A stretch of 64,000 bases of DNA, taken from contig NC_091160.1 of assembly GCF_040958095.1 (NCBI RefSeq), positions 36,202,236 through 36,266,235 on the forward strand, written 5' to 3'. A program made the position numbers and the translations under genes. Shown one piece after another: positions 13,986 through 62,900 of this stretch (the stretch's first letter is position 1; each line of letters begins with the position of its first letter). This DNA is from Procambarus clarkii (lineage: Eukaryota > Arthropoda > Malacostraca > Decapoda > Cambaridae). Below the pieces are notes generated by a model that made no database searches, had not been told where the DNA came from, and worked only from the letters and a program-made list of their open reading frames with translations.

Positions 13986-14523
13986 GTTGTAGCCTTGGGC
14001 TACACCAGCTGCAGGATTTGGTTCATAGCATTGGGCTACACCAGCTGGAAGATGTAGCTTTGTGTATACCAGCTGGAGACCACCTTCAGGAGGGCTGGGA
14101 AATAACGTTATATACCATAACCAATAACAAAAATCTTAGACAGTCTGGTGTCCGGAGTACCGACCACTAGGCTTTAACATTTGAAATGACCCAAGCCCCA
14201 TGGCACAGTAGATAAATGAAGCACATGAGTACTTGTAATTAATCTAACAATTTTTTAATTCAAATGCTACTAAGAAAAATATAAAAAGTATGTTAGTAGG
14301 AGAGAGAAAACACCCTTTGTATTCCCTTTCACACTTGTTAGCATCTTGGGGAAATAATAATACAGTATAAGAAGCTGTCTTGGTCTTTTTGAAGTTTAAT
14401 TTAAGTCTTCAGTGATGGAATTTATACATCAAATATGATGTTCTTTTAGATTTGTATACAGCAGTTTTGAGCATATCCTTTATATTTTGTTGTACTGCAG
14501 GATACCTTCATCCTGAGACCAAA

Positions 14524-14798
14524 ATGTCAGCCATTCCACCACCAGTGGAACAGCAGCAGCAGCCCAATGAAGCCAGCTGCCTGGTCAACTGCCAGATAGA
14601 AGGGGCAGTAGCAGCAGTAGAAACACCAAGAGAAGAGAACAGGAGTCCATTGGAAGAGAACAGGAGTCCAATGGAAATTACCACACAAGATCTTAACTTT
14701 GATCTACAGATGGTCCTGGATGGGTTCACACAGTGTAAAGGAGAAGATGGACAGCTCTACCTGGATGGATACCTGCGTGCTTATAGTGAAGTGAACAA
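14524..14798 (+). CDS. CPTP: CPTP homologue, coding exon 1
   Basis: The exon begins at 14501 after TGTACTGCAG with the ATG at 14524. It encodes the N-terminal extension, including four consecutive Gln and the duplicated EENRSP, and then the start of the GLTP domain (FDLQMVLDGFTQC). It ends in phase 2 at the GTATGA donor. Intron 1 is 631 bp and unremarkable. Confidence 0.88.
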
Positions 14799-17700
14799 GT
14801 ATGATAAAACAGTATTTTTGTCACATTAGAGCCAAGTTAATCTTATATTCTTCATTGTTTTTGTTATAAAATTGCTGTTTAAGAAAGGTATGTTTCAGGA
14901 AGAATTTTGGTAATGGACAAAATTAGGAAATAAAACTACCACCATGATATAAACCTGCCCCTAAAAAGATGCCTCCAGGCTTTATGCTGGGTATATACGT
15001 AAGTTAATACAGTTTTATGGACATAATTCACTGCACTTGTACTCTGTGTATTCAGCTCAGTGTATGGATTTGAACATAAATTATTTTAATATTATAATTT
15101 TATGGGTTTAATACTACACAATATACATGGTGCATGGTGACATCTTTATAGCCCATGTAGTCGAGTCAAATAAGAATGGTAAATGGTTATGACATTATAC
15201 ATAAAAGTAAAGCAGTCAAGGTTTTCACAAGGTTTCCACAAGGTTTTCACAAGGTTTTTTACTCTTAAAAAGAAAGCAAGAAATCCTACCACATGAGCCA
15301 TAAAAGCATAATAAGGAAGGCTGGCATGTTGGCAGGATATCCTGTTAACACCTTGATCTGTAGGGTATATCACTGGTAGTTGAGCATGTTTGCTTTTTTT
15401 GCTGAACAAGTTTTATTTTACTTCCACAGATTCTTGAAGATCCTGGGAACAGTTTTCAACTTTGTGTCTCACGATATTCAGAAAAAGGTAAGATTGTATG
15501 AAGAGTCAAAGATAAAGTAGTTTGCATTAGATGCTAAATAATTATTATTATTAATTATTATTTATTGTTTTATTTTGTAAAATACTCTTGGCTGCATGCC
15601 ACTGGTTGCTTTACAAATTGTTGTACATTATTTATAACCATTCAGTGTACTTAAGGGATGGGGGGGATGGTATTAGAGTGTAACAACTAAAGTTAAGAGG
15701 TTTTAAGTGAGGGTCCTCAATGTTTGATGGTATGTATCTGTGCAGCTGTTAAAGAAAACTCAAGTTTTGTAATATTGTTGTCTGGCACCTCCTTGTTAAT
15801 TACCACTGTATACCAGAATGGTCTATAATTGCTGTATTCATAGACACTACTTAATAAATACTTATTTAAATTATTTTTCTGATGGGAGCCCCTACTGCTC
15901 CCTGTAGCTATCGGGCTGATATGCAATATATTATACCGGGGCATCAGTCAATGGAGTTCAGCTTACCGAGACCACGAGCCAGAACCTGGCCCCCCTCAGA
16001 GAGGCAAAGGGAGCAATTGCCTATAGAAACTCCCATGTGGTTGGGTGCATTCCATGTCTAGCATCAAACAGGGTTGGTACCTAAAAGGGCAGGCATAACA
16101 AAACAACCCCCACTTGGTAAGAAAAAGCGACCAAAAAATCAAACGTGGAGGCAGAACTCCCCTCTACAACTTGAGAAAACAAGCTAACATGCAAACGTCA
16201 CATCTCGCCACCGGCCATGAACGGTGGTGAACAACCGTGCAGCTCTCCACCCCTGGAGAGCTGCAGGGGTGGAGAGCTTCCCCTTCTTCCCTGGAAGGGG
16301 GAAGCCCAGGACCCCCCTGCACCAGCTACCCAAACCATCCAGTTCGGAGGCTGAACATCAAAAAGGCCGGCCCAGCTTTGGTTTTAGGCGCTGCTTGCTC
16401 GGTGTCAGAACCCAAGGTGTTTTCTGCGGTTCCGCCTCTTTCAGCAGATCGGTCCGGTCAGGTACCTGGCTGGTTCTGTCTTCTCTTCCGCTCTTTGCGT
16501 CTGATCTTTTTGACGCGGGTCTATCACCATTTGTATGGTGATCAGGTGGCTTCATTGATGGTGTCCCACTTGCAGGCTTCTTCTCGGCGACAGTATGAGG
16601 TTTCCTGATATTCTTTCTGCCATTTTCTTTCTCTTCGTAGGTTGTCCTCTATTTCTGATCGAGTTGTTTTGTCCTTTCTCTCTTGGCTGTGTTAGGACCG
16701 TCATTTAATGCCTAATACTGTCTCCTCGTATTGTGCGCTGCTGGCGGAGCTGCTTCAGCGTGTGGACGTCTCTTCCGCCCCATTCCGTAAGCCTTCTGGT
16801 GCTTTGTTTCACCTCTGGCCTATTAATGCACCGCCTGAGCTGTCCTGGTTCTTAGACTGGCTGCTCTTTTATCTCCCTTCTCCTCGGTTCTTGGTGGCAT
16901 TTTCGGTTCAGGACTGTCTCTCAATAGCTCTTTTTCTGTTGGTATTGGCCTCTGGGGGTCGTGTGGGGATCTTCATGCTCTCCTCCAGCGCAGGGGTTTC
17001 TGCTCCTTCGGTCCTGGTGGTAGGTTTGCTTGGTTGCAGCCGTCCACTTCTTTTCTGGCAAAGAACAAGACGGCTGCTTTCCAGAGGGACCCTTGGGTTA
17101 TTGATGCTTGATTGGTCAGGCTGGGGGTACATCATGTGTTGTGTCCGGTAGCGGCTCTTCGCCGTTAACTGCACGCCTTGGCTTCTATGGCCGGGGATGC
17201 ACCGTGGGTTGATCCGGTTTCCCACATTCCCTGTTCCAGGGCTCGGGGTCTCCCAGATTGTCCGCAGGGTTATTAATTTTAGCCAGCCTGCGATCGATCC
17301 TTGTGCCCATGATATTCGGAAGTTTGCTGCTTTGGCTGCCGTCTTCGGCAATATGTCCTGAGCTGACATTCGGGCGTAGGGATTTTGGAGGTCAAACAGG
17401 GTCCTGGGCGCACATTATCTTGTCACTGTTTCTGGTCCTAGTCATCCGTGTGTGGCTTTGGGTGGCAGATTGCAGCCAGTTGTCTTGACTTCGAGTTGAG
17501 GAGCAAGTGTCGTCCACCTTCCGGGTAAGTCCCTATTTTCCTTATCTTTGGTGATGTAGCTCCAGGGAGCCGTAGGGGCTTCCCTCAGAAAACCTGCGTT
17601 AAATGTAATGAAACACCATTTTCTGGGCGAGCCTCCCTGGCAACCCTCCCTCCTTCCCTCCGGATGGCGGTTTCATTTTCTTTTTGATGCTCAGCCTCCG

Positions 17701-20700
17701 AACTGTATGGCTTGGGTAGCAGGCACAGGGGTTACTGGGCTCCCACCCCCCTCCAGACAGGCGACACAGCAGTGAGGTGTGACATTTGCTTGTTAGCTTC
17801 TTTACTTAAGTTGTAAGGGGAGTTCTGCCTCCCTGTTCAGTTTTCGGTTGCTTTTTCATATAAAGTGGGGTTTGTTTTGTTATGCCTACCTTTCTAGGTG
17901 CCAACCCCAGTCAATGGCAGACATGGAATGCTCCCAACCACATGGGGGTTTCTATAGGCCATTGCTCCCTTTGCCTCTCGGAGGGGGGGCCCAGGTTTTG
18001 GCTTGTGGTCTTGGTAGGCTGAACTCCATCGACTGATGCCCCGGTCTAATATATCGCAAATCAGCCCAATAGCTCCAGGGAGCCTCTGGGGCTCACCCAG
18101 AAAATGGCATTTCATTACATTCAACGCTTTTTTTTTTTTTAATTTCTTAAGGCATATATGCACATTCAAAATGTGTGATTCTTGGATATTGGTAATCTTC
18201 TATTGCACTGTTAGAAAGGGATGAGTCGATATTTGCTATTTGGAGACACGATTTAGGGAGTATTTATTAAAATAGTATGGCATAGTTGCTACAAGTGTAA
18301 GCAAGTTTGAAAAAGCCCATTCAGTATGTTATATAACATAGAGAGGTCTATGAATGATGATAATCTTACAGAGCATGACTTGAGTTGTCTACGGTGGGTT
18401 AAATGCAGTGGCACCCCAAAATATGTATCCTGAGAATTGTGATAAACTATAATTCTAGCAAAATATATTATTAAAATTTTTAATGTTTATTTTTACTACT
18501 GTAGCATCTGGTGATAAAGATTTCTATTTAACAGGTAACAATTCTTCAGTGTTATTGCAAAGGTGGAGCAGGAGACTACTACTACTCAATTCAGTCCATG
18601 ATTGAATACGAAAGAGAAAACAACATCCTGACGAGCAGCGACCAACAGTCTGGGTCGAGAACTTTATTGCGACTCCACAGAGGACTTGGTGAGGAACTAC
18701 TATGGTGGACTCTACTTGGATTGTTTTCTATATTGAATTTTAAGACAATATTATGAGGAAAATAATATTGTTATTGTTTATTATTTGTAAAGTTAGATTT
18801 ACAGCAGATTTAATATTTTACTGTTTTGTAATGGCTTACTTTACTGTATCCTGACTACATTGTATCTGCATGCAAGCCGACATTGATCCTGAACTAAATC
18901 TTGTGTCATAAATCTACAATAACCAGCATATTGATCATCAATACTGCAGGTACTACACAGCAAACCTTGCAAAAAACAAACTTCAAAATAACACTTGCCT
19001 ATCAGTATTTAACCTAAATGTCGGATAACTCTGTATACATTTTAATGATACAAATGCACTACTCACAGAACTAGGTACTAAACTACCGTTCATTATATTA
19101 ACAGGAACATGGCTAAGTAAAGACCATACCCAACTTTACAACTTAACTGGTTATAAAGCCATTCACATTGTAGGGCAAATAAAAAAAAAAGAGGTGGCAT
19201 AGCTATCTATTACCAAAATATCTTCATTTGCACTAGTGTCATTAGTGAGAGACGACTAATGTGAATATACCTTTGCTCAATTCTCGATTAAATCCCTTAA
19301 ATCCTCTCTGATTATTGGAGCTATCAATAGATTTCCCAATACTAATACAACTGCATTTTCAGATAACCTAAGGAATCTAATCATAAACAACAAGCTCAAC
19401 AAAAATCACATCATTCTAGGAGGTGACTTCAATATTGACCTGTCAACAAAATAGCCCTCAAGTCAACTATTTCCTAAAGAGCATGAACTCCTGTATGCTA
19501 ATCCCCACAATCACCAAGCCCACCCGAAGCACTCAAACATCCTCTACTACCTTGGACCACATATGGACTAACATAACAGCTCCCCTTGCATCTGGTATAA
19601 TCACTGACAAAACAAGTGACCACTATCCTACCCAGCCTTGGTTTTAGGTGCTGCTTGCTTGGTGTCCGAACCTGAGGGTCTTCCCGCGGCTCCGTCTCTT
19701 TCAGCAGATCGGTCCGGTCCGGTACGTGGCTGGTTCAATCTTCTTTGATCTTCGTGTCTGGTCTTTTTGACACGGGGTTATCACCACTTGTATGGTGATC
19801 AGGTGGCTTCGTTGATGGTGTCTCACCTGCTGGTTTCATCTTGGCAGCAGTATGAAGTTTCCTGGCGGTCCTTTCGGCACTTTTTATCTCTTCATAGGTT
19901 GTCTTCGATTTCGGATCGGGGTGTTTTCCCCTTTCTCTCTTGGTTGTTTCAGGACCGTCATCTTATGCTGAATATATTGTCTCGTATCATTCGGCGCTGG
20001 TGGAGCCACAGCTTGCATTCGGGGGCGGATGTCACTTCTGCTCCATTCTGCAAGCTTTCTCAGGCGTTGTTTCAGCTCCGGTCTGCTCATACGCCGCCTG
20101 AGCCATCCTGGTCGTTGGATCGAATGCTCTCTTCTCCTCGGTTTGTAGTGACCCCTTTGGTTCAGGACTGTTTTTCTAAGATTTTTCTTGTTGATAACCT
20201 CAACAAGGGGGTTGGGTCGGGGAGCTTCATGCTCTCCTCCGGTACAGGGGTTTCTGCTCTTTTGGTCCTGGTGGTCGGTTTGTTTGTTTGCAGCTGTCTC
20301 CTTTTTTATCCCGTGAAGAATGAGACTACTGCTTTCCGGAGGGGTCCTTGGGTTGTTGATGCTTAGTTGGTTTGGCCGGGGGTGCATCATGTTTTCTGTC
20401 TGGTTGCAGCTTTTCGCTGTTACTTGCGTGCCACGGCCTCCATGGCAGGGGATGCGCTTTGGGTTGACCAGATTTTCCTTCTTCCCTGTTCCGGAGACGC
20501 AGGTTTTCCAGGTCGTCCAGAGGATTGTTTGGTCCAGCCAGCCTGCGGTCTATCCCCGTGGCCACGACGTTCAAAAGTTTGCCGCTTTGTCTGCTGTTTT
20601 TGGTACTATGTCTTTGGCTGACATTCGGGCATGGGGTTTTTGGAGATCGAACAGGGTCCTGGCCGCATGGTACCTAGTTCATGTTTTTGGCCCCTCTCGG

Positions 20701-32640: not shown

Positions 32641-33400
32641 ACATCACTGCCTAGTGCATTTCATTGGTTAACTACCTTGACACTGCAAAAATGTGTTCTA
32701 ATGTGTGGCTCATTTGGGTACTACGTTTCCACCTGTGTCCCCTTGTTAGTGTTCCACTCATGCTAAATAGTTTGTCTTCATCCAACCTGTTAATTCCTCT
32801 GAGAACTTTGTAGGTGGTGGTCATGTCTCCCCTAACTTTTCTGTCTTCCAGGTACATGAGGTTCAATTCCCATAACCTTTCCTTGTAGCTCATACCTCTC
32901 GGCTCTGGGACTAGTCGGGTGGCATACCTCTGAATCTTCTCTAACTTTGTCTTGTGTTTAACTAGGTGTGGACTCCAGGCTGGAGCTGCATACTCCAGGA
33001 TTGGTCTGACATATACAAGGTTCTGAATAATTCCTTACACAATTCCTAGCATGCACAGCTGATGATGTCCTTTTGATGTGGACTTCTGGGGGCCAAGTTC
33101 AGTGTGATATCAACCCCCAGGTCTTTCTCTCTACCATGTGCTTGGGCTCCTACTCTCTTCACCTAATTTAATTACTTTACACTTGGGGTTAAATTTTAGT
33201 AGTCGCTTTCTGGACCATTCCTCCAATTTGTCCAGGTCGTCTTGTAGTCCCTTTCTATCCTCTGTCTTCATCCTTCTCATAATTCAATTTCATCATCAGC
33301 AAACATTGAGAGGAAATGAATTTATGCCCCCCGGAAAATTGTTTACATGTATCAGAAACAGGATGGCTCCAAGTACTGTGTAACTTAGCATGTCTTGTGT
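32640..33400 (-). mobile_element. LINE reverse-transcriptase C-terminal fragment
   Basis: The minus strand reads, in pieces, LEYAAPAWSPHLVKHKTKLE, YATRLVPEPRGMSYKERLWE, LNLMYLEDRKVRGDMTTTYK and VLRGINRLDEDKLFSMSG. This is the well-known thumb/C-terminal block of CR1/Jockey-like non-LTR polymerases. One or more frameshifts separate the pieces. It is a truncated element. Confidence 0.8.
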
Positions 33401-41900: not shown

Positions 41901-44900
41901 GTTGAATGATTGTAGACGGAAGTGTGCAATGGCAACGAGACGTCACAGCAGGCATTAGCTCTAGAGCACAATACCAGAGGCAGTGGCCTCCTGGCTGTCA
42001 TCGTGAGTGGTTATGTGCTGCATTTTACTCCATGGCCGGCCATTATTTTTTTGAACTTGTTAGTGATTCGTGTGGTCACTGACTCATCGTGGTCACACTC
42101 ATCGCCTTGATTATCTGAACCAATTGGTACCTCTGGACGTTCCGATAATATTTTTCTACAATTTTTGTTATTTTGGTATTTACTGTTTTTTAATTAACAT
42201 GTGATTACAGTAGTGATGTTTTCATTAGGAATGCACCAATGTATATACAGTGTATGTACAGTAATTATGTTAGTTTAGTTCATTTATTATGCACCCCATA
42301 CCCATCCTGTGGGTGGTAGTGGAAAGGATTTATTCCCACATTTATTCTGAGCAGAATAAATGTGGGAATGGCAGTAATAATAATGTATTTGTTACATTGA
42401 TAACTTGTTGCAGGAGTCGATGAGTGTTCTAGAACAACAAGCACAGCAGTACTCTGCAGCGTACCATCAGCAGCATGAGCAGCAGTGGCAGCAACAGACT
42501 ACTACTACTACTACTACTGCTGCCGCTGCCGCTGCTGCTGCAAACCCCTGGGTATGGGGCCAGACAGGGGTAAGTACACAATTTACCCACCCATTTACCC
42601 CCATATAAATAATGTAAGTTGTGGAAATTGCAGCAAACTTTAGATTTGATTTCTAGGATTTTCATATAAATGGGCTTGATAAGTAGGTCAGTGTGCTAGC
42701 AGGTGTGGGGTGCTAGCAGGGCGAGCACATCACAGGTGTGGGGTGGAGTTCTAGCATCAGGTGAAAATAGGAGTCGTTATTAATTGCAGTTGTAACGGCT
42801 ATAATTTGTTTAAAAATTTGTAGTTTTCTAGGTCTGATGACTGTAGTTAACTTATATTTTCTATTTAGGAAGTCTTGCTTACATTTGAATATTGAAACAG
42901 AAGCTCTATGCCTTTTTATTTGTCATTTTTAATTTAAGTAAAATACAGTATATATTTTCGTGTGTTAAAGATAATAAAATTGTTTAATGTGATAGCATTG
43001 TATGGTTTATTTTATTTTTTCACTAACAACAACTTTACATTCATGAAATAAACTGATAAGTTTGTCGTATCTTGTTAGTGACGAGAAGTGTATATACATT
43101 ACTGTACTGCATATCACTGCACTGTTTATGTATGACATTGTTAAGCTTAGATTAACCTAGCCCAACTTTGATATTTATTTTCACATCTGAATTAGTTTGC
43201 TTGTTTACAGGTTTATGGCATGTATGGCATGTATGGCACTACATCCGGGGTGATGCCAATGATGTCTGTACCTCCCCCGGCAGTTTCTAATATGCACCAG
43301 GATACTAGTGTTCCCCCACCAGCCATGGGTTCCCAAAATGGTGCCAATTCTAGTGCTGGTGGAGCGTCTACCGGTACCCAATCCTCCAGTGCAGGCAAAT
43401 GCTAGTAATTCTACACAGAGCGGGGCCTCCACTGGTGCAGCTCCTCCAGATTCTTCCTCTCCTAAAGCCCCTCTTCCACCAGATGATCCTCCACCACCAC
43501 CACCACCTGAGGAAGAGGAAGAGAAGAAGACAGAGAAGTCTCAGGGTGGTGGCTCAAGTAAAGGAGGGGACGGTTTACTAGGGGCACATCCTAATGCTGG
43601 CAAAGATACTGGGGATGCCAAAGGGAAAACGCAGGATTCGACTCAAGATAAGTCGGCAGTTGGACAGACACCTGGGTCCATGGGCGATTCTCCTGGACTG
43701 AAAGGACTATCACAAGGGTTGATGGGACAAGCAGCAGAGAGAGGTGGCATAGGAGGAGGAGGAGGAGGATGGGGTAACCATGGGGCACAGAATCGACCAA
43801 ATTATGATTCAGCTCAGCAAATGTCCCGTGAAGGAGAATGGGGAAACTCCTGGGGCAAGGGTCCCAATCAACATGGAGGCAGTCAAGGTTCCTCAAACTG
43901 GAACCCTGGAGGTGGACAAGGTAGAAATGAAAGTAATCAACCTTGGGGAAGTTATGCGGATCGTGGTAATCGGACAGATTCGTCGTGGGACAGTTACAAT
44001 CGGGGACAGAATGCTCAAGACAGGGGAGGAAGTCACCTTGGCTCGGATCGTATGTATTTTACTGTGTGATCGTTAGTTTGGTAGACTTTGGTATGTAATT
44101 AGTAAGTGTTCAGCTAGGGTCAAAATTGTAACTTGTAGTGCATGCATCATATATAATATAATGAAAACACAGAAATGTGAGGTGGCATAAAATTGTTTTA
44201 AAGTTTATACTGTATATGAATGCTATTACTGGGATCAGTGAACAATTTTGTTTCAGAAAATTAACAAAAGGAAATAATTTTTATTTAGTAGCAAATGTTT
44301 TGAAAATATAGAGAGTTAAGTGAGCAGTAAACATGATAATAACACAATATTTAGCTTGTGTAGAAAAGTGGTAAATTTATATTAAAGAGTTAACCAGAGA
44401 AGCTAAAAAAAAAATATTTGCTTAGAACATAAGAATGAAGGTTTGCCAAAAGTCTATCGACATCTTCTATTTATGCAAATCCCTCTCACTCGTGTATGGA
44501 CCATATATTGAACTGGTTGCTAGAGCAACAATCTTGCTTCTTCCAGAGTCGGCATTAATCTAAGGTATTGCAAGCGGTTGGGCAGCATTTCTTCACTCCA
44601 TCCTATATCCCGGCTCCTTGTCCTCGGGACTAGATATGAGCATCATATTTTTTAGCATAACAATCTTCCTCACATTTAACTGTTCAAGTTCCTTAAATTA
44701 CACACTATTGATTGATTGATGAAGATTAAACCTCCCAAGTGGTGGCACGGGTACGAATAGCCCGTAATACACAATATTGAATAATATTTCTACAAAAATT
44801 AGGTAAAAACCATTTAAAGACATTGAAATAATTATGTAAAAATATGTTTGTGGCAACCTCCCCCCCCCCCCCCCCTGCCGCACTGATCTGCCAGGGTGGT

Positions 44901-47900: not shown

Positions 47901-50900
47901 TTATTACCTTTACAGAGTGATGAGGACCTGAAGGAGTTTGACAGGCAGTTTGTCAATTGGGAGAAACAATTTAAACAATGGCAAGATGAGAACAAAAGTC
48001 ATCCAGACAAAAATGCTCTCAGGAAGTATGTATATAGTTGTGCCTTTTTTCCCCCCCCCCCCCATTCCCTGCTAATTGTTTTACTCATCTCTTTCTGGTA
48101 GTCATTGATTGGCAATTTTGGTGTTTGGATGTGGCCTCAAGGGCTTCAAGATCACTTGTGTTATTTGTTTCCTCAACACCCACTGTAGTGCAAGCTTCTC
48201 GATCAGCTGAACTGTCTATGGTTGTAAATTTGGTAGAAATTTCTTTATTTTTATGAGTGAGCTTGTGATGAAGTCTCTTGGCAGGAGTGTGAGGAAAATT
48301 GAGATGTCAGCAAAATTAAATACTTAATTGAGAATCCAAGCATTAGGGTAGTTACTTTAGGAAGAGGTACTGGTCATGTTAGAGCAATTGCAATTGCTAC
48401 ATGGGATATCAGGTAGGGTAAAATATCTCGACTCGAGTTCATGGGGGAGAAATTAGTGCAGATTCAAAGAGAAATGGTGTTAGAAATGGCAGACAGCCTA
48501 AGGTGTTAACATCTGTTGGATGTATACCGACCCAAAATATGTTTGTGCTCAATGAGGCTCTCGTGGAACCAATTTTTGCCACATTAGTAATGGGAGGAAT
48601 GCGTGTATTTTTCGAGAGAGAGATTTAAATATTATTTGCAGATTTGACTCAATATGTGGTATTTATTATGCATGTAGGAATAAATTTAGTAAAAAGTAAG
48701 TCAGAAAAGCTTGTGAAAAGTCAACCGAGAAATGAATGGTTGCCAGTGGAGGTATACCATCACAGTGGAGTGTGATGTACTCGAGCATGGCACAGCCATA
48801 TGCCATGTCCCCCCCCCCCCCCCCTAGCCCCTATTTTTGTGGGGGCTGTGTAAGTGGGAGTAAGTAAGTATTTATCACCAAATTTTCTACATTTTTTCTA
48901 TAGCAAGTGATACATAGCAACAAATAAATAATATATAAACAATGAATTTGGTGGGATGTTAAGTATTATTTGTAATTAGTAAATGTAAACACAAATATTT
49001 TTATTCCATTTTGGAGCAGAGAGAGATATATATAGATATATATAGATATATATAGATAGATATAGATATAGATATATATACATATAGATAAATATAGGTA
49101 GAGATAGATATAGATAAATATATATAGATAGATAGATATAGATAGATAGATATATAGATATAGATAGATATAGATAGATATATAGATAGATATATAGATA
49201 GATAGATATATAGATAGATAGATATATAGATAGATAGATATATAGATAGATAGATATATAAATAGATAGATAGATATAGATAGATATAGATAGATGTAGA
49301 TAGATATAGATAGATATAGATACTCTATCTCAGCTCAGCTTGGCAGGGCACTGAATGCACCAGTAAAATTGTTAAACTTTTGTGGAGTTTATTGTAGATT
49401 ACTAACTGAGTGAAACATTTCTAAAATGTATTATTTAAAATAATACCGTATTTATAAACATAAAATGCAAGATTATGAAAAAAATTAATTTTGACAAATA
49501 ATTTTACGTGGTTGATTTTGGTCCAGATTTTTTGCAAATTCTGCCATAACGAGGTTTGGATTTTTGGGGTGTCAGTGTACTGTATGTCTATTGTCTTGAC
49601 TGTCTCTTCTCCTCTTGCTTCTCATCTTTCTCCTCATCTCCCAAGTTATGTTTGTATTGTATACAGAATTTGAAAAATAAAATTAATGTCCCTTTGGAAG
49701 TTTGTTGTATGTGAAAATATATTTTTGAACTTAATTTTTTTGTTCTTTTATAAGGTATGAAGAGGATTGGTCTAGATGGCGAAGTGAACTATTGGCAAAA
49801 AGAGATGATATTCGTAAAACAAAATTAGAACAATTTGTACAAGAGCAGCAGCTGGGGCAGACTCAAAATAAAATTGGTATTGATGCTCCTGGTCCTGGTG
49901 GTAGCATTACTGGTCCAGCTTCCACTGCCACAGGTACAGCCTCTGCAATCCCGGCAGCTGGTCTGCCTCCTGGCCTCGACCCAAAGAAACCCATGGAATT
50001 GAATGACTGGAAAGATTTGAGTGATAAAGAGCAAGGGGAATGGCAGAGGAAGGGTCATGGTGACCAAGACAGAAACTGGCAAGGCAGTGCTTGGCAGTGG
50101 GCTCAAGTAGGTATTTGAAGGATTAGCATTGTGTATTTGTTTAGAGGAATTTGTTGTGTTTATATTTGTTAAATGTATGGTATATAGAAATGTGGGATAT
50201 GTAAACTTAATATAAAAATCTCAAGGAAAGAATCAGGAGTGTGTGTATAATTCTGTATCAATTTCTAATGTACTATAATGTATTTTCATTGAGTATGTCC
50301 CTTCTTATAGTCTGGATATTTCTTTTACTTCCTATGGGGATTGGTAGTAAGTACTCCTGATTGGATTCCTTGAGTGATTCCTGAAGAATACCTTCACATA
50401 TCGACTCAGACTTTAATACTTATGTATGGTGGTGCAAGGAAGGTACAGTCTCTTGTTACTGGAGAGTGTAGGCCATTGGTTGCAGATATAAGAACCTTTT
50501 GATCACATTGCATTGGGGGTTTGGATGACCTTGAACAATATCTTGAAAACATAATCAAAGCTATACTGAAATGTCTAAAGCCATCCTGATGGTATCAGAT
50601 ACTCGGAGTAGTCTAGGTTGCAAGCGATTTCAGAGCAAATTTTACTATAAGACCAGTTACGTGTTTTTATACGTGACAATGACTTAAAATGTTCTACAAT
50701 ACAGCATAAAAAATTTGGAATTGGTTTTGAGTTAAAAAAAATTGTATAGGACAGAGCATTTTTAATTGAAATAGGCAGCTAGCTTCCAAATTTTCCAGAA
50801 TTTTTGTCAACTTTCTTTTCTGTACTGTTATTGCTCCATACACCTCCACACATCTCTACTAAAGCCACTTTATGCCTACTTTATTTCCTCAGTGATAATC

Positions 50901-53900
50901 AGGCTTCTTGTTACTTCCTGTATTGATATTAATTTTGTATTTGTGCGTAACTGATATATATTGTCCACAGGATAGAGAACGAGGAGGTGGTGTCAATCGA
51001 TCAGATAGTGGCCATGGTATTGGAAACCTTGAAAATACGTTGAATCAACCAAGGGGACAAGACCGAGGTGGATTTGGACGTGATGTAGGTCGTGGTGGAT
51101 TTGGCTTGGATTCAGGTCGAGGTGGGTTTACCCAAGATCAAGGCCGAGGAGGATTTGGGCAAGAACCAGGACGGGGAGGATTTGGACAAGAACAAGGGCA
51201 AGGAAGATTTGACCAAGGGCGAGGAGGATTTGATCAAGGTCGAGGAGGTTTTGATCAGGGCCGAGGAGGTTTTGATCAGGGCCGAGGAGGTTTTGATCAG
51301 GGCCGAGGAGGATTTGATCAAGGGCGAGGAGGTTTTGATCAAGGGCGAGGAGGTTTTGATCAAGGGCGAGGAGGTTTTGATCAGGGCCGAGGAGGATTTG
51401 ATCAAGGGCGAGGAGGACTAGATCAAGGACGAGGTGGATTAGATCAAGGTCGAGGAGGATTTGATAAAGGACGAGGAGGATTTGATCAAGGACGAGGTGG
51501 ATTTGATCAGGGCCGAGGAGGGTTTGATAAAGGACGAGGAGGGTTTGACCAAGGCCGAGGAGGAGGATTTGGACAAGACCAAGGAGGATTTGGGCAAGAA
51601 CTAGGACGAGGAGGACTTGGACCAGAGCAGGGAAAAAGTGGACTTGAACAAGAACGAGGAGGACTTGAACAAGGGCGAGCAGGATTAGGCCTAGATCAAG
51701 GACGTGGCGGACTTGGTCAAGATCTAGGAAGAGGAGGACTTGGTCAAGACCTAGGAAGAGGAGGACTTGGTCAAGACCTAGGAAGAGGAGGACTTGGTCA
51801 AGACCTAGGAAGAGGAGGACTGGGTCAAGACCTAGGAAGAGGAGGACTGGGTCAAGACCTAGGTAGAGGTGGACTTGGTCAAGACCTAGGAAGAGGTGGA
51901 CTTGGTCAAGACCTAGGAAGAGGAGGACTTGGTCAAGATCTAGGAAGAGGAGGACTTGGTCAAGACCTAGGAAGGGGAGGACTTGGTCAAGACCTAGGAA
52001 GGGGAGGACTTGGTCAAGATCTAGGAAGAGGACTTGGTCAAGATCTAGGAAGAGGGCTTGGTCAAGATCTAGGAAGAGGACTTGGTCAAGATCTAGGAAG
52101 AGGACTTGGTCAAGATCTAGGAAGAGGAGGACTTGGTCAAGACCTAGGAAGGGGAGGACTTGGTCAAGACCTAGGAAGGGGAGGACTTGGTCAAGATCTA
52201 GGAAGAGGAGGACTTGGTCAAGATCTAGGAAGAGGACTTGGTCAAGACCTAGGAAGAGGAGGACTTGGTCAAGATCTAGGAAGAGGACTTGGTCAAGACC
52301 TAGGAAGAGGAGGACTTGGTCAAGATCTAGGAAGAGGAGGACTTGGTCAAGATTTAGGAAGAGGAGGATTTGGTCAGGATCAAGGTCGAGGGAGATTTGG
52401 ACAGGAACAAGGTCGAGGAGGATTTGATCAGTCACAGGGCATTGGAGGATTTGGTCAAGAAAGAGGTTTTGGCAGTGCAAGCCATGGACTTGGTCGAGGT
52501 GGTTTGAACCAGGGCCTGGAGCGTGGTGGTTTTAATCAAGGCCTTGGGCGAGGTGCTTTTAACCAAGATGACAGAGGTGGTTTAATCCAGGAGAGGGGGC
52601 GTTTTAGTGAAGGACTGGGTCTAGCTGGTTTCAACCAAGAACGGGGTGGTTTTAACCCAGGAGAGGATCGTGGTGGCCTCGGACAAGGACGTTTTGGACT
52701 TGACCGAGGGGGATTTAACCAAGGTGACCTTGGACGTGGTGGATTAAACCAAGACCAGGGAGGTTTTGGTCAAGGACTGGGCCGTGGCAGATTAAATCAA
52801 GATCGAGGTGGTTTCAGTCAAGAAGGCCAAGGTGGTTTTAAACATGGACTGGGTGCTGGTGGATCAAGTCAGGAACGGGGAGGCTTTACCCAAGGTTTAG
52901 GCCGTGGTGGTTTCAACCAAGGACAGGACCGTGGGGAGTTTGGCTTTGGTCGAGAGACTCGTGACTTGGATTTTGGACTGAATCGGGAAACATTTAGCAA
53001 GGGTCTTGGTCGAGGAGGATCTCTACTAGGAGAATATGATGTCAAAAATGATAAAGGAGGATTTAATCAAGGAAACAGAGGAAGGGGATTCGAATCCGAG
53101 CGAGGGCACAATGAACTCGGTCTGAGAGGAGGAGGTAGAGGAGGATTTGACCAAGCAAGAGGTGGTATATCTCGAGAGCTTGATCAGCTAGGGCATGGTC
53201 GCGGAAGATTTGACTCTCCAGATAAAGGAAGTGCCCCAGGACATGGTCGAAGCTTTAGCACACTCAGGCAAGGCCCAGAGGGAATTGATAGTGGTAAACC
53301 ATTTCAAGAAGGATTAGATAAAGGCAAAAAAGGTTCAGTTGATCAAGATGATCGTTTACAGGGAGGACTTGACAAAGATGATAGAAACACAGGAATTGGT
53401 GGTGGAAATTTAATTGATAAGGAGATTAGAGGATTGTTGGATAAAAAAAAACCTGAAAGAGGTGGCTTTGCTAATAGGGGTCGAGGGCGAGGTGCTTTTG
53501 ATAATCAGGGACCTGATCAAGAAAGATTTGGTGAAAGTGCAATGGAAGTGGAAAAAGGAGTTCAAGATCAAGATGATAGGGTTCCTGGAGGATTTGACCA
53601 AGTTGAATGGGGTCGGGGATCTGGTGACTCCAATAAGCGTGGCACTAGAGGACTTGAACCAAGCAGGTGGGGTCGAGGAAACTTTGACTCGAGTGGAAGT
53701 GGAAGAGGCACAAGTAGATGGGGTCAAGAACTTGTTGATGCAGGTAGACAAGCTCAGGGAAGTTTTGATCGAAGTGGGCGAGGCCGAGAACCCTTTGGCC
53801 AAAATGAACAAGATCGAGGTAACTTGAGTGAATTTGGTAAAAGTGGTATTGACAGTGGTCGAGGTGGAATAAATCAGGCTGGAAGAGGCCGAGGTGGCAA

Positions 53901-56900
53901 TGATCGAGGTGGTAGAGGTAGAGGTGAAAGTGAAATTGGCAGAGGACGGGGTGGGACTGATCGGAGTGGCAGGGGTCGAGGTGCAAACGAAGATGTCGGC
54001 AGAGGGCGAGGTGGCAATGAGCAGTCTGGCAGAGGTCGTGGTGGAAATGAAGAAGCTAATAGAAGCCGAAGTGGAAATGAAGATTCTAATAGAAGCCGAA
54101 GTGGAAATGAAGAACCTGGTAAAGATCGTGGTGGGAGTTATCAGTCTGGCAGAGAACGAGGTGGGAATGATAAAGATGGCAGAGATAGAGGTAGGAATGA
54201 TAAAGATGGCAGAGGTCGTGGTGGGAATGATCAAGCTGGAAGAGGTCGAGGAGGAAATGATCAAGCTGGAAGAGGTCGAGGGGGACATGATCAAGCTGGA
54301 AGAGGTCGAGGGGGAAATGATCAGGCTGGCAGAGGTCGAGGTGGACGTGATGATTTCAGTGACAGAAGATCAAGAGACTGGCGTGAAGGTGACAATAAAG
54401 AATTTGATTCACAAAAGGACAACAGTGATTGGAGAGGAAACAGTGACAGGTGGGTTGCATTGTAGTAGTATTGAGCATGAAGGGTTGGTTAGAAGATTGT
54501 GAATAATAATATGATAGATTAAATACAGTATATTCATGAATGATGAAATAATAGTAGTAGTTGAAGTAATACAATTAATCATTATCATTTACTACATTTC
54601 CCATTTTCATTGTGTAGGGAGGCATTAAAAAAATAGCTGAACAGTATAATGAAAGATAGATTATTATAGGTATTCAACAAAATATTACTTGTTATATCAT
54701 TTACTCTATATAGCATTCAACTCCAGCAGTCATTCACCACAATACTTTGCCTTTTCATAAAACCATGTGTCCAGTTCTCTTCATGAATTTTCATATGTTG
54801 TATAACAACATGCAAACACTTATATTCACTCCCGATTTAAAGATGTCTTCCACCCTGCCCTCTATCTTGACATATCCTGTACTGTATTTGCATTAAATCC
54901 TGGCCACCATTCCACAATACCACCAGGAATTCAGATGTACTGTACTCAGTTTCCAGGACTGACTTGAGAGTGCAGAGCAGAGTACTTTCAGAACCTTCCC
55001 CTAGACCAATTATACCAGTAAAACTTCATCCTATACCCCAAAAGCACCAATCAGTCGAGCCTGGCCTCGGGCCAGGCTTGGGGAGTAGAAGAACTCCCAG
55101 AACCCCATCAACCAGGTATCAATTGTTTACCTCACCCATCAGTTGCCACCCGTTGACTATCAACTACCCATACCCCTCTCTCCCTCCTATATTCTCCCTC
55201 AGGACTCTATTATCACAACCCTCCCCCTTCCTCTCAGCTTCCAAACCTCTCAACTCTTAAACCACACTGCATGACTGACATCCACTCGTCTGCTCTCGCC
55301 TGCATTTGAGTTACTTGGAGCCAAACAGCACCCCACCTTCCCTGACAACATGAGTGTTCCATCCTCTGACATATTCAGAAGATGGAACAACAATCAATAA
55401 ATAATCAAGGTCTGGTACACCAATGCTGATTGTCAAATAAACCAGATAACCTTTAAAGAAAGGACTGTGTAGCTAATGTTACATGTTCTTCATCATTTTA
55501 TGAAGGGTGTTAAATCTGACTGTGGGACCCTATATCATCATTACAGGCATTTCAACAAAGATGATTCAAGGAGTGGAGGACGAGGCCGTGCTGGTGAGAG
55601 GGGTCGTGGGGGCTTTGGTGAGTCGAGTTCTTACATTTATTATAAAACTGAATGTCTACAAATGTGTTTGCATGTATGTGAGTGTATACAGAACCATCGA
55701 CACATCACAGATTTCCTGACTTAAATTTGTTTGTACAACTTGCATCAGAAATTGACATCGGCAAGGTATTCAAACTGACCTTCTATGCCTGCCCCATTTA
55801 TGTACATTTCACATGTGGAGCCTTGTGCTATCTCTGCAACTGTTACTTGTGTTCACACTCACTTTTACTAGTTTTCTCTCACATCAACAAAAATGATTCA
55901 ATTAATTAACATTGTCATAAATTAATCTTTAGTTTTGAGTCACTTTCAATTTAAATAATGCAAGATTCTTGGCAGATCGTGGCAGGAGTCGAGGTCGAGG
56001 TGGTGGACGGGGCAATGAGTTTTGGGATAATCGTGGAGAGATGGATCACAACAGAACTGATGGGCCACCAGGCTGGAATAGAGGTAGGGTACTGCACAAG
56101 TAATTTTAAGAGCTGATATCTTTGTCTTGATTGTTGTAAATTGTATCAGTTATTAGAACTTTGTCATTTTGTTACATGATGTAACTTGTCTGATTCATAA
56201 TGAACAAGGGGGATCAGAATTTCATACTAATGGGGGTCATATCATAATTTTTGTGTTTGATTGTATGCTGGTGTTTGAAAATTGAAAATGTCTTAAGAAT
56301 TATTAACCCTATCTGTATACTGGCCATTAACCCTTATCAAAGCAAGCAGCATTTGTACTGACTGAGTATATATGCATGAACCTCCTGTTAATTATTTCTG
56401 GCAGAATTTAGCATTCTTCAACGTCCATAAAAACCAATGTGACCCAGCCCGCAAGTACTTTGGTGTTAATTCCTGCTGCGTGCGTGTGTGTGCAGAATAT
56501 CGACCTGTTGTGACTGTGATGTATCCATGTAACCAGTATTATCTTTCCTTAAGAAGCAAATGTACTCTCAAGGCCTCCTCATTTACACTTTCCTTTTAAT
56601 CAGATAACAGACGGGAACAAGAGCAGCGAAATCTTGATTTGGGCGTCGGAAGATCTGCAGAGATTCCTGGTCTGGACCTGGCTGGTGAACCACCCAAGAA
56701 GGAGAAGGGAAAGGAAAAGAGTGGTGAACAAAAGAAGGATTCCACTTCGAAGACTGTGTTCCATGACCAGGAGGATGAGAAAATAGGTAAGACCATTGTT
56801 GTGATCATAGGGAAGTGGTAATGATACATTGATGGTTTTCTGTACCTATTAAAATAAAGCTGCAAATATGCAGACGATGGGTCACAATAACATGGCTGAA

Positions 56901-59900
56901 GATATGAAGATTAAACCATACACACCAGAAGGCAATTGACTTGATGATGGTCCAGGACGGATCAAAACGTCATCATCTCCTCAAGTTCTGGTGTGTTGTG
57001 TTGTTTAGTCTTCAAAACTGCAAATAATTTTAAAGTAATTTAAAAGTTAAATTTTAGGACATTTAGAGTACTGTAATTTAAATTGACTTGTTCTTGATTA
57101 TCTCTTCTCTTTGCTGGTGTAGCCATCATCTTGAAGCATTGAGAATATATTCTCGTATCAGGATTTTCTCTTTCTTTGTATTATTTTTCTATTCCCATGT
57201 TTTCCTGGTGGATAATTCTCAGAGAAAGTGAGGAAAATAAATCTATATAAATGGTCAGGGCCAAGTTTATTATGTGTAGTTAAAAGTGTGTGTACCTGCT
57301 TAGTCAAGATTTAGCTATCTTCTTGCTAAGAAAGTTTTCAAACTGTTTGTCTGCAATCTTTTATTGTTTGTAGAATTTTTTCATTAATCAAACTCCATGT
57401 GTTTGGGCACTGAGTAAATTTTCTTAGAATGCACTAAAAGTTCAGGTGTAAATGTATTCCTGGCTTATAAGAAGAGGTTCACGTAATTCCCAGCTTCTCT
57501 GTTGGGTAACACATTTCTTCTTTGAGAAGCAAGTAATTTTAGTTACAGTTGTACTTGTGTTGTATTCACTTGATATCTCGTTATCTTCTAAGATGTGGCT
57601 GTGATAAACAGATTCCAGTTTCACTATAATCAACAATCTTAAATTGGTTTAAGATTATACAATGATGCCTAGGAAGCTAGAATCTTTGGTGACAACATTC
57701 TACAGTGGAACCTCAAGTGACGAGCGGCTCCAGTTACGAGCATTTCGAGTAACGAGCAAGCCACTCGCAGAAAATATGCCTCGACTGACGAGCTTTTGCT
57801 TGATTAACGAGCATTCCCGCTGGTTCTCGGACACCTCTGACGACAGTTTTGTTGTTATTTCACAAGACTAGTTTTCCACATGACGAGCTCAGTGCCGGAA
57901 CGCATTAAACTCGTTAATCGAGGCGCCACTGTATATTTGTATTTATCATTCTCTATGTCCCCTTCTATCTGTCTGGGTTTCTAGGTCATGCCCTGCTTGA
58001 CATGCAAGTGGGTAAGGCATTAATTTCTGCACCACAAAATAGTTTTTTTTCTGTGTGACCCATCAAATTTTAAAGTACATCTGGAATTTTTATGGTTGAT
58101 AGGGATGATAAAGAACCCTTTATGTTTTGCATTGCTAAAATATTTGTCCTTTAAAAATTTAAAACTCATCTCGATGTATGAGTTTTATCATACATCATCA
58201 AGTTTTATAAATATATTGGTGCTTATCTATTTGTTGTTTTTTGTTTACTTCAGATGTAAAGCTTGGAGCTGAGCCACTGAAAATTGGACCAATTGGTGTA
58301 CCCCCACAAAAGGCAGAAAAATTCACGCTTCCAGGAGACTGGTATGACGATGAGGAAGACAATGAGCGGAAAGAGGTTGAAGGTGAAAAGGAAGAGAGCA
58401 AAACTGAAGAAACAAAACCAGCAGATAGCTCTCAACAGAAGGATAAGCCTGGTGTAAGTTGTGCTTGAATGTCACTTGCAAAATATAGTTGTGTATTAAA
58501 AAAAATTCTTTTCAAGTGAACTTTTGTAATATATGTTTAGCATTAACCCTTCAGCTGCATAATTGTATTTGAGAAGTTTGAATAATTTCAAGAAATGTGT
58601 TTTGACATTGGAAGCGAGGAAGTTCTTCTTGAGAGAACCTTTACCTTTCGGTTACCTTTCGTTGGTTCCGAGGATCACCATTTCCACAGTTGGTGCTGTT
58701 CATTTAGGCTGTAAGATGCAGCTGCTTACAGCCAGATGTGTGAATCACAGCCAGGTTGATCAGGAATCCTTTGGACACTGTTTATCAAGTTCTCTTTTTG
58801 AACACCATGAAAGGATGGCCAGTTATGCCCTTTATGTTTAGAGAGAGAGAGTGTTGAAAAGTCTTGGGCCCTTGATGTTGAGAGTTCTCGCTCAGCTTAC
58901 CTATTGTACCTCTGCTTTTCAACAGGGTTATTTTGCACATGCTGCCCTGCTACCTGGTCTCATGTGACCTCTCAGTGACTGGTGGAGTGAGATCTAGTTC
59001 TTCATGCCGTTTAGCCTTTTGAAATTGAAATTAAAAATTATATAAAAGTGTCAGACAACAGAGGAAGAATTGAAACAGGAATTTCCTTAAGTACTTTTGT
59101 ATATTAATACATCTTCAGAAAGAATGATTATATATATTCCTTCTGTCTGAATAGGCAGTCTGAATAAAAAATAAAAATTATATTCTCATTCCGTCTGAAG
59201 ATACAAAGTACTTAAAGGAAATTCCTGTTTCAATTCTTCCTCCGTGGTCTGACACTTACATTTTTCATCACGTTAATTTTGTGATTTACACACATATGTA
59301 ATATTATATATAATATATATTATATATATATTATATATTGCAGGAAAGGAGGAGGAATCCAAAAGTGGGAGGGATGCATGGAATAAGGGAGGGTGGGTAG
59401 GTAAAATATGAGGAAAGGGATATTACCTTCAAAGATACCTTTAATAGCCAGTTTTAGGTAGAAAGAGTCTCTAGCATTTTATCGGTGCTCCAATCTGCAA
59501 AACCTCAAACCCAAACCGCCTGTTATCCGATTGGAGTTTGTTCAGATAAAACAGTTTTGATAACGGGTGGGGCAGGCAGTCTGAATAAAAATGTTCAATA
59601 AAGATGGAACAAGTTTGCCCAGTGACCGTACACAGCACCACTTGAGCAGTGTTCATATGTTAATGGATGATTCAGAAGCTTTCAACTCTGCCATGGCATT
59701 AGGTACATTACAGTACATGGTAAAAGGCAGTCTGCTGAGGTTATCCCATCACCATTAATCTCCACTTAATTCAACCCAACAATTAATCATCATCCACCAC
59801 CACCACCTTTTCTATCTTAAGTAACTTGAAGATTATAGTTGATGGGGCATTGTAAACAAACAGATCAGAACATATATTGTTGAGTGCCAACAAAACACTG

Positions 59901-62900
59901 TTGAATATCTGCAACAAAATTTTCCGCTCCCCCCCCCCCCCCCCTAGCTTTTCAGGATGACTAACCCCTTACTCGAACACACGTTATCCATTCAGTCTTA
60001 GTTTCGAGGGGGTTCAGATAGCATGTGGCCGAATGTAATACATTTCCCTGAAAATATATTGCATAATAAATGGAAATGAAATGTATTTTTTCTATAAATG
60101 ATTTTCATTGCCATTACTGTCCATGTAAGATCAAGAATTTGTTAAAATTAAATTAATTAAATTTGTAAACACTTTCCTTACAATTAATTAGGATCTGACA
60201 TGGTATATTAATTTTAATGAAGAAAGACTGTGTGCTACCTTAAATTTAATGTCGTGTCAGATGAAGTATGGGATTTTTTAAAAGCAAATGGCATTAGTAC
60301 TTCATGTTTTAAGATTTTATGGGAGAGAAACTGTAAATGTTGTATTAAACATGCAGAAAATGTCCACTTTTCTGTAGACATGGACCCGACCCATGAGCCA
60401 GTAAAGCTCTTATTTTAGATGGTTGCTTCAGTAAGGAGTTAATTAACTTTTCCTACCTAGTTGCAAAGCATTTATATTTGCAGGTTAAAGAAACTGCAAA
60501 GCCAGTTTTTGGAGGGCAGCCACAGCAAGATATTGGAGGTCCTCAGAGGCCAGGGCTTGAAAATCCACAAAGGCCCGATATTGGAGGCCCACCAAGGCAG
60601 GATATTGGAGGCCCACCAAGGCAGGATATTGGAGGTCCACCAAGACAGGATATTGGAGGTCCACCAAGACAGGATATTGGAGGTCCACCAAGGCAAGATT
60701 TTGGGGGTCCACAAAGACAAGATTTTGGGGGTCCACAAAGACAAGATTTTGGGGGTCCACAAAGGCAAGATTTAGGAGGTCCACGGCAAGATTTGCGAGG
60801 TCCACGGCAAGATTTGGGAGGGCCACAAAGGCAAGGTTTGGGAGGCGCTCAAAGGCCAGGTTTGGGAGGCACTCAAAGGCAAGGTTTTGACAGTCCATCA
60901 AGGCACAGTTTTGGTGGAGCAGTGAAGTCACAATTTGATGGTCTACCTAGGCAAGACTTTGGTGATCCAGCAAGACCAGATTTTGACAGTGCATCAAGGC
61001 GAGGTTTAGGGGATGCTGATAGAGCAGATTTTGGAGGCACAACAAGGAGGACTTTTGATGATCCCAAAAGACCCGAGTTTTGGGAAATAGACAGAGGAGA
61101 CTTTGGGGCCTCAGGGAGAGATCAGCACAGTGGATCAAGGTGGCAGGACACAAGAGACAGACAGGTAAGAATCAGTGTTGATTCATTGAAGTCTATTTTC
61201 ATATAAACCTTGAGCAAATTTTTAAGATTCCAACATTCACTGTAGCAATTGTAGCAAAAATATTATGGTATTGCATGGGGGAGATAGTAATAAAATGACT
61301 AAATGTTAAAATAATTTATGGGTATTTATTGCAGGGTTTTGCAAACTATAAAAAATAGAATTGTTTTTTTAGATGTACATTAATAATCTTTATTATACCA
61401 GTATTAGCTTAGTCTACAAATTTCATGACGTAGAGTAAACAACCAGTTTTAGAACTCTCCTTGAATTCAAAGTGAGCACAAAAATGAGTAACTTGCTTGA
61501 TCCAGATTGGTTATGAAAAAGTTGTCTCTGGATTTAAAATAAAATACAAGTTAATTTAAATTGTAAAGAAGCTTGTTTTATACAGGACATTCTTGTGCTT
61601 TTTTCATGTCTGATCATTTGCTCTTGTGTCTTGGCTTCATTTGTGTTACCTGCTTCCACCTGTGCCACTTTATTTGATTTCCTGCCGCCTCATGTGAATT
61701 AGACTACCTACCTTTATTCCACGCTTGTGTGTTAGGATAATATCCTCTCTTGTCCTTTCTGATATTGTTGTCATATAGAACTGATTCAGCTTGTCTTCAT
61801 GGTTGAGCTCTTTTATTTCACTCACCGTTCTTGAATTATATCTGGACCTGAACCTTACATACTTCACAAGGTGGCGGTTACCTTACCTTGCGATGATGTG
61901 GTTCAACGTTCCCACGGCCCGGTCCTCGGCCAGGCCTCTTACATGCCAATGCTTACATATTCTTGGACTGGTCTAATTTTATAATATTTTTAATTATTCT
62001 TTGTTTGGGGTTTTAAAATTATTTCACAAATGTTCAGGGTTCATTAATGTTATATTCTGATTGTGCATAATCTTCACCTCAATTCATTAAAATAGTAATA
62101 CAGAATTATAGATACAGTGTTAAGACATACACTGCAACTCTTGCATACGGATTCTCAGGTTAGCAGGAAATAAGTCGTGTTCTTCAGATCAATCAAATAA
62201 TTGGCTTGTCTTGGCAGCTGCCAGCATTCATTTGAAAAAAAAAAAAACACTTTACCTTACATAACCAAATAAGCTTGTCCAGGGTATCTTACAAATAGTG
62301 AAAGATGGAAGAAAAACTATTTATTAATGAGATCATCCATAAATGATATGAAAAGTTGTGTATGGATGACTGAGAGTGCCAAATTGTATCATACCAATTT
62401 TGAAATGGCTCCTAGTAGTTTTGTGTCAGTTACCTGCTTCCATTTTTATCCACGTCCTTTGTTTTTGTATTCATAATTTACCCATTCACAGTGAAACTCG
62501 TAAATGATTGAAAAACAAAAATATTTACTGTACTTATTTTTTATGATGGGGAATTATGACTGTCAGTAGATTTATATCATCTATGGTAAAGACTGAGGAA
62601 GGCAGCTAACTGGCTCCTTCACCACTGCCACCAAGAAATATTTACATCAGTGGACCAAATAAATGCCATGCCATCTTAATGTGGCAAATGGGAGATATAC
62701 TATAAAATATTTTTGACCATGTGAATCATACATACCATGTTAGTTTTGTTTGATTAGGTGAACCATATGGGACTGGACCCAATTTCTTTCAATGGTTAAT
62801 GTCTTCAGGAGGAAGTAGATAATTTTTTTTTTTTTTTTAACTAGTGTAAAGGATGGAACTCATCCTGGTGCATGTACCAATATAGGCAACAAAAAATACA

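Follow-up and report, generated by a model that had tools for sequence, protein, structure and literature searches.

The human protein YLPM1 carries a disordered region rich in Arg-Gly (RG) between its spectrin-like and P-loop parts. The RE/RD/RG-rich disordered region of human YLPM1 binds RNA in a polynucleotide kinase (PNK) assay in human cells; its fly counterpart in Zap3 has YG/GP repeats and an entirely different sequence (PMC6581911). YLPM1 was found in the human nuclear RNA interactome and has been reported with PP1, SAM68, NF110/45, and hnRNP-G (PMC4822031). How an RNA-contacting disordered region can be rewritten until the human and fly versions have no common sequence (PMC6581911), and how its function is spared, is an open question. 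Here we analyzed 64,000 nucleotides of the crayfish Procambarus clarkii (contig NC_091160.1, positions 36,202,236 to 36,266,235 of the forward strand; the window), in which a 3.5-kb exon with tandem repeats, the RGG exon, encodes a long protein segment dense in Arg-Gly-Gly (RGG). We conclude, with a probability of roughly 0.78, that this exon encodes the disordered RG region of a single-copy decapod YLPM1/ZAP3 orthologue, that it grew by waves of minisatellite duplication under purifying selection, and that its product would serve as a nuclear RNA-contacting tether.

The second group of described relatives comprises the RG/RGG domains of nucleolin, GAR1, FUS, EWS, and C. elegans NUCL-1, which the crayfish segment resembles in being RGG-dense, Gly-rich, and of low complexity. 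It differs from them in its length, its near-zero net charge, and the almost complete lack of Tyr. In a C. elegans survey, the longest RG repeat spanned 321 amino acids, and NUCL-1 had 32 repeats in 176 residues (PMC9633708). By the rule of that survey (RG no more than 15 residues apart), the longest RG run of the crayfish exon covers 587 amino acids with 65 RG, which exceeds the C. elegans maximum; the comparison is limited to that survey and claims no record across animals. The unusual length pointed out by a first-pass annotation of this DNA was thereby supported. The third group, coding minisatellites, has in common with the crayfish gene units that are multiples of three, length changes by whole triplets only, and synonymous drift, the bias toward synonymous changes being weak in one crayfish array. 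Compared with coding minisatellites generally, the crayfish gene stands out by having at least five arrays in a single gene. No report of the expansion was found in open-license PMC titles and abstract openings on YLPM1/ZAP3 and RGG repeats; it may be published elsewhere. The novelty lies in the elaboration of a known protein, not in a new kind of system.

Structure and composition of the RGG exon

The RGG exon is one open exon of 3,479 nt (1,159 codons plus 2 nt) bounded by AG and GT, within an open frame spanning 50899 to 54465. Its acceptor at 50971 reads ...ttgtccacag followed by GATAGAGAA (first letters GATAG), and its donor at 54449 reads CAGTGACAG (last letters ACAG) followed by gtgggttgca. 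The arrays were located by Tandem Repeats Finder (TRF), and units were counted by peptide pattern. The features are as follows.

50971 to 54449, + strand: RGG exon, phase 0 in and phase 2 out, length 2 mod 3
51193 to 51592, + strand: 21-bp array, unit FDQGRGG (17 units by peptide pattern), TRF match 87%, differences at codon positions 6/0/29
51693 to 52385, + strand: 27/24-bp array, units LGQDLGRGG (19) and LGQDLGRG (6), TRF match 91%, differences at codon positions 1/1/13 and 0/0/4 in two stretches
52386 to 53852, + strand: RG-rich middle, mostly non-tandem, 489 codons, no stop in the true frame
53853 to 54345, + strand: 30-bp array, the most diverged of the three, TRF match 73%, differences at codon positions 37/26/61

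The first-pass annotation had described a single exon built from three successive RGG repeat families. The single exon with in-frame 21-, 27/24-, and 30-bp arrays was found as described, but the arrays make up only 1,586 (400 + 693 + 493) of the 3,479 bp (46%). The middle holds an older, degenerate family of the GGFNQ type, whose roughly 19 units extend to ~52,925; beyond that point the sequence is less regular. Seven-residue units of the FDQGRGG type number 18 (17 in the 21-bp array and one at 51691) and come in 14 distinct DNA versions, whereas the 19 nine-residue units occur in 7 and the 6 eight-residue units in 2 versions. As had been proposed, the latter lack one Gly and remain in frame, the spacings in this array being 18 times 27 bp and six times 24 bp.

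Adjacent units differ in about 4.9% of their nucleotides in the nine-residue (9-aa) array, 11% in the seven-residue (7-aa) array, and 27% in the ten-residue (10-aa) array. This rise suggests that the 9-aa array is the youngest and the 10-aa array the oldest, an order that holds unless gene conversion differs between the arrays. The degenerate middle is perhaps older still. In addition to the three arrays of the RGG exon, the gene holds an in-frame 24-bp array at 60525 and another in the stretch just past the window (L009:3126-3266), i.e., at least five in all.

The encoded segment consists of 33.2% Gly, 13.4% Arg, 9.7% Asp, 9.0% Gln, and 8.2% Leu; only 2 of its 1,159 residues are Tyr. It contains 117 RG, 74 of them as RGG. 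Three RGG separated by 0 to 4 residues form a tri-RGG. Sixteen tri-RGG starts were counted, 15 in the 7-aa array and one at 53125, with none in the 9-aa or 10-aa arrays. RNA-binding RGG boxes are typically net basic, although this is not a strict definition. The net charge per residue of the crayfish segment is 0.013 over the whole exon and 0.079 in the 10-aa array, so that the segment is a charge-balanced R/D polyampholyte rather than a basic RGG box. The likeness to known RGG regions drawn in the first-pass annotation does not stand as written in view of this near-neutral charge and of the near-confinement of tri-RGG to the 7-aa array. That array does have about one Phe per unit, like the Phe-rich motif of nucleolar RG/RGG proteins (PMC9633708); the names of the RGG/RG motif classes follow PMC8619983. 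The basic and acidic residues are more interspersed than in shuffled sequences (2.77 versus 3.79 ± 0.35 residues), a value that tandem units alone could produce.

Evidence for coding and for purifying selection

Eight consecutive exons between 47916 and 61164, chosen by eye at AG/GT sites, splice with agreeing phases into 1,728 codons with no stop. The 489-codon middle of the RGG exon contains no stop in the true frame, compared to 61, 13, 18, 14, and 17 stops in the five other frames.

To analyze selection within the arrays, adjacent units were compared and the changes were set against a null model in which the identical base changes were placed at random. In the 7-aa array, 28 of 35 changes were synonymous (12.8 expected; omega, the dN/dS ratio, ~0.14), which was reached in none of 5,000 shuffles. 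The same holds true for the first stretch of the 9-aa array (13 of 15 synonymous, 6.1 expected, omega ~0.105, 0 of 5,000 shuffles). In the second stretch all four changes were synonymous (1.6 expected, omega 0, 0.8% of shuffles). Selection is weak in the 10-aa array, with 53 of 124 changes synonymous (39.2 expected, omega 0.62, 0.18% of shuffles). Changes common to several units are counted repeatedly in these figures; by distinct variants, the synonymous fractions are 12/14, 7/9, 2/2, and 26/61. The synonymous drift claimed in the first-pass annotation was therefore recovered on aligned units. Its view that selection keeps the frame and the composition but not the exact sequence needs to be modified: the frame is kept, but the low omega (~0.1 to 0.14) indicates that in the young arrays the amino acid sequence of the unit, and not only its composition, is kept as well.

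The share of differences at third codon positions was 0.83, 0.87, and 1.0 in the 7-aa and the two 9-aa stretches. No comparable bias was seen in 11 control arrays with triplet periods, whose largest single-position share was between 0.35 and 0.63; in the two arrays at the top of this range, 5 and 19 differences were counted. The controls were picked from the window and from other stretches of the same genome (L022 to L027, L029, and L030), leaving out L028 and the first array of L025; a further window array, at 10112, has 2 differences only.

Unit spacings were multiples of three in 55 of 55 cases in four exon arrays (three in the RGG exon and one in the exon at 60484 to 61164), as expected from the proposed in-frame growth. 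In non-coding arrays of the window, this was the case for 28 of 63 spacings of a 31-bp array (Fisher P 5e-13 against the exon arrays) and for 9 of 31 or 30 of 61 spacings of a 23-bp array, depending on which of two anchor words was used. Across the window, L009 to L011, and L035 to L040, TRF periods of at least 7 bp were multiples of three in 9 of 9 non-overlapping exon arrays but in only 24 of 50 arrays elsewhere (P 0.003). With agreeing phases, a middle open in one frame only, the synonymous bias, and triplet-only spacing, the RGG exon looks like real coding sequence.

Similar sequences in the same genome

A DNA search of the 4.03-Gb genome gave at least 101 matches at E ≤ 0.001 (40 of 57 candidates scored). 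Among the matches listed, only the RGG exon itself was full length; the others lay within query positions 231 to 1485, the repeat part. A protein search gave at least 97 matches (40 of 75,139 candidates scored), and the RGG exon was again the only full-length match among those listed, so that neither search listed a second full copy. Nine protein-similar loci were fetched and inspected as possible paralogues or other RGG genes, together with the DNA-similar loci L002 and L004. Within this inspected subset of the matches, paralogy was rejected: the nine loci are plain minisatellites, mainly with units of 21 to 30 bp (one of them, L023, partly masked), and L002 and L004 are plain minisatellites with periods of 28 and 29 bp.

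Frames of 1,047 to 2,880 codons run through four of the nine loci (L025 to L028), shorter ones through the other five, and most of the loci can be read without a stop in several frames simultaneously. Locus L027 (C16:34526500-34536499), a 27-bp minisatellite whose 320 copies fill 8.6 kb and reach the end of the fetched stretch, has one frame without a stop over 2,880 codons and is a good control for coding claims drawn from tandem arrays. As these controls show, coding cannot be deduced merely from a tandem array being open over a long distance. The ~1,160 codons without a stop emphasized in the first-pass annotation are indeed open, but taken alone they are weak proof. As a side observation, for L022 (C3:20041000-20049000; arrays of 30, 21, 57, and 120 bp) the protein search gives a 1,525-aa frame for three match places, and direct reading gives at most 975 aa.

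Identity of the gene

The seven further exons of the chain, two RD-rich exons at and past the end of the window, and two upstream candidates are listed here.

42414 to 42569, + strand: candidate upstream exon, Q/T/A-rich
43211 to 44049, + strand: candidate upstream exon, P/G-rich, its two halves in different frames
47916 to 48025, + strand: upstream exon with the first half of the W-rich spectrin-like region
49755 to 50106, + strand: upstream exon with the second half of this region and a linker, phase 0 out
55547 to 55617, + strand: downstream exon, RG-rich
55976 to 56083, + strand: downstream exon, RG-rich
56604 to 56786, + strand: downstream exon, charged linker
58254 to 58453, + strand: downstream exon, acidic linker
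60484 to 61164, + strand: downstream exon with the in-frame 24-bp array (PRQDIGGP/PQRQDFGG)
Window end into L009:1-452: RD-rich exon
L009:3080-3366: further exon of the RD-rich part, with an in-frame 24-bp ASGRDDNR array (L009:3126-3266)

In the 24-bp array at 60525 to 60889 (GGPPRQDI/GGPQRQDF), 17 of 36 differences over 60525 to 60790 were synonymous, with 10.7 expected.

The gene, to which the first-pass annotation had given no name, is most likely a single-copy orthologue of YLPM1/ZAP3, judged from the spectrin-like piece upstream of the RGG exon and the AAA_33 P-loop and C terminus downstream. Exons in L009, 5 to 8 kb past the window, splice to a 223-aa P-loop product matching Pfam AAA_33 (36.6 bits, cut-off 27) and KTI12 (28.1 bits, cut-off 22). 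Its four matches in the genome are its own four exons, i.e., it is single copy. Over 210 aa, this product shares 50% identity with human YLPM1, and over 46 aa the W-rich spectrin-like piece shares 28% with its human counterpart (provisional human letters in both cases). The terminal exon, VRWADVEEGKKQSAARERGFVLGQTDW up to the stop, lies farther downstream at L036:1663-1821, 41.7 kb past the window, and encodes VRWADVEE...GFVLGQTDW, where we take the human protein to read RVRWADLEE...GFVVGQTDW. A PP1-docking RVxF/W motif may be present at the VRWADVEE at L036:1663, which directly follows the splice acceptor; the residue before V would come from a preceding exon that was not found.

The crayfish gene and YLPM1/Zap3 thus share the AAA_33 P-loop, the W-rich spectrin-like region, an RD-rich stretch before the P-loop, the VRWAD..GQTDW C terminus, and an RG-rich disordered region in between. 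Unlike in human YLPM1 and fly Zap3, the crayfish RG region is a single 3.5-kb exon with tandem units. No YLP motif occurs in the 1,728-codon chain, which starts at 47916; one YLP was found, only in the less likely frame of the exon at 43211 to 44049. This exon and the one at 42414 to 42569 are likely 5′ exons of YLPM1. The former changes frame at ~43350 to 43405, and its end phase does not fit 47916; the frame change may be an assembly indel, a very short intron, or a real frame break.

Since the human RE/RD/RG-rich region binds RNA and the RGG exon sits where the RG region is expected from the human order, the exon most likely represents this region in the crayfish protein. By analogy, the YLPM1/ZAP3 identity is a better basis for predicting RNA binding than the resemblance to RGG proteins.

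Two other relations were considered and rejected. The sole PDB match of the RGG exon, the coagulation factor V B-domain (phmmer 7.4e-9, residues 241 to 455, the LGQDLGR array), was attributed to the period and composition of this array; the factor V B-domain has nine-residue repeats. FMRP is reported to bind its own mRNA via G-quadruplexes (PMC4822317). In the RGG exon, 48 two-tetrad motifs compared to 50.6 ± 2.0 in synonymous shuffles, and no three-tetrad motif, gave no sign of codon selection for such self-binding.

Proposed mechanism and alternative explanations

We propose that successive waves of minisatellite duplication lengthened the exon, with only whole-codon length changes surviving and purifying selection keeping the amino acids of the units. 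Minisatellites are the largest component of the satellitome in the 19 crayfish species studied (PMC13130569), and this abundance would supply the mutational engine. The region would form a long, flexible, multivalent nuclear tether that links the N-terminal, spectrin-like part to the C-terminal part with the P-loop and the putative PP1-docking motif. The arginines of the region may contact RNA and serve as substrates of protein arginine methyltransferases, and the alternation of R with D/E would keep the region near neutral and its contacts weak and many. Methylation could tip the region toward self-association or away from it. For the crayfish region, arginine methylation, binding to RNA, and condensation are predicted here by analogy. 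Judged from charge and aromatic residues, self-association would be strongest in the 7-aa array, weaker in the 10-aa array, and weakest in the 9-aa array, and RNA binding would be strongest in the 10-aa array.

Several observations weigh against this reading. The net charge of +15 over 1,159 residues (R+K 180, D+E 165) weakens the likeness to basic RNA-binding RGG boxes, and in the units of the largest array (9-aa) a Leu takes the place of the aromatic residue, mostly Phe, of the 7-aa array, and six residues separate the RGGs. In the 10-aa array, the third-position share (61/124, 0.49) falls inside the control range, leaving the weaker synonymous test as its support. The orthology depends partly on provisional human letters, Pfam is silent on the RGG exon and, above cut-off, on the spectrin-like piece, and the eight-exon chain could not be linked to the 5′ candidates. 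Within the RGG exon, 28 of 190 GTs score 6 or 7 of 9 against the donor consensus (the ten model donors score 6 to 8), and at least 8 of 439 AGs have 10 or 11 upstream pyrimidines (model acceptors, 9 to 15). All of this comes from the DNA of one genome.

The alternative that survives best is that growth was essentially neutral: a tolerant linker was lengthened by minisatellite mutation, selection did no more than remove frame breaks and damaging residues, and the extra length has no function of its own. We consider this quite possible, though not the explanation we favor. Minisatellites are the largest part of crayfish satellitomes (PMC13130569) and are frequent in the window, the fly Zap3 sequence is unrelated in the corresponding region (PMC6581911), and the array that looks youngest is also the one whose units differ least from each other (4.9%). 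However, omega values of 0.1 to 0.14 indicate that the unit sequence is kept, not just the frame, and the interspersion of R/K with D/E beyond that of shuffles points the same way, with the reservation given above for tandem units. In the opposite direction, a stronger version of the preferred reading has a charge-balanced "R-G-D" region of more than 1,100 residues, rebuilt by in-frame minisatellites in the crayfish lineage and variable in length between individuals, act as an adjustable RNA and self-association tether in YLPM1; this we regard as doubtful. If it were true, minisatellite turnover would be a mutational source replacing the RNA-binding disordered region of YLPM1 between animal lineages while the function persists. 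At least five in-frame minisatellites of seemingly different age with measurable selection make the process testable across crayfish species and individuals.

Partial removal of the exon through alternative or internal splicing, which would leave a much shorter RG region in the protein, is unlikely. The simple splice scores leave internal splicing possible, as the internal sites given above fall in the range of the model sites, but codon constraint was found in the arrays tested (weak in the 10-aa array), and skipping of the whole exon would break the frame, its length being 2 mod 3. An assembly with a wrong copy number, i.e., a collapsed or expanded array, is quite unlikely. The TRF matches of 87, 91, and 73% make the first two arrays hard to assemble, and the frame break in the nearby candidate exon at 43211 to 44049 may be an assembly indel; on the other hand, the synonymous variants are scattered over the units (14 DNA versions among 18 seven-residue and 7 among 19 nine-residue units), and no frame break occurs in 3.5 kb. 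Finally, the plain, often multiply open minisatellites at the nine protein-similar loci and the 28- and 29-bp periods of L002 and L004 would suggest that the exon is a non-coding minisatellite whose long frame is open by accident. This reading is very improbable and was rejected, being contradicted by the excess of synonymous changes and of changes at third positions, the single frame that stays open across families of different spacing and the 489-codon middle, the matching splice phases, and the location inside a conserved gene.

Other features of the window

Pfam gave no match for the RGG exon, none above cut-off for the spectrin-like piece, and none above cut-off for six other open reading frames (ORFs) of the window and L010; an Rfam search over 38000 to 64000 at gathering thresholds gave 0 matches. 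The ORF at 14416 to 14829, which ends in LNFDLQMVLDGFTQCKGEDGQLYLDGYLRAYSEVNKYDKTVFLSH, presumably resembles a glycolipid/ceramide-transfer protein, with no Pfam match, and another gene may lie upstream of it. Two related ORFs (16696 to 17151 and 19749 to 20366) presumably resemble fragments of DIRS-type tyrosine recombinases, and the ORF at 32672 to 33034 (− strand) presumably the C terminus of a non-long-terminal-repeat reverse transcriptase, likewise with no Pfam match. Positions 1 to 42000 contain many minisatellites, with periods of 52, 23, 92, 14, 20, 33, 39, 50, 36, and 31 bp. Some of them lie under long open frames that are maybe incidental; one, at 6124 to 8514 (796 aa), is Q-rich in its 3′ part and might be coding.

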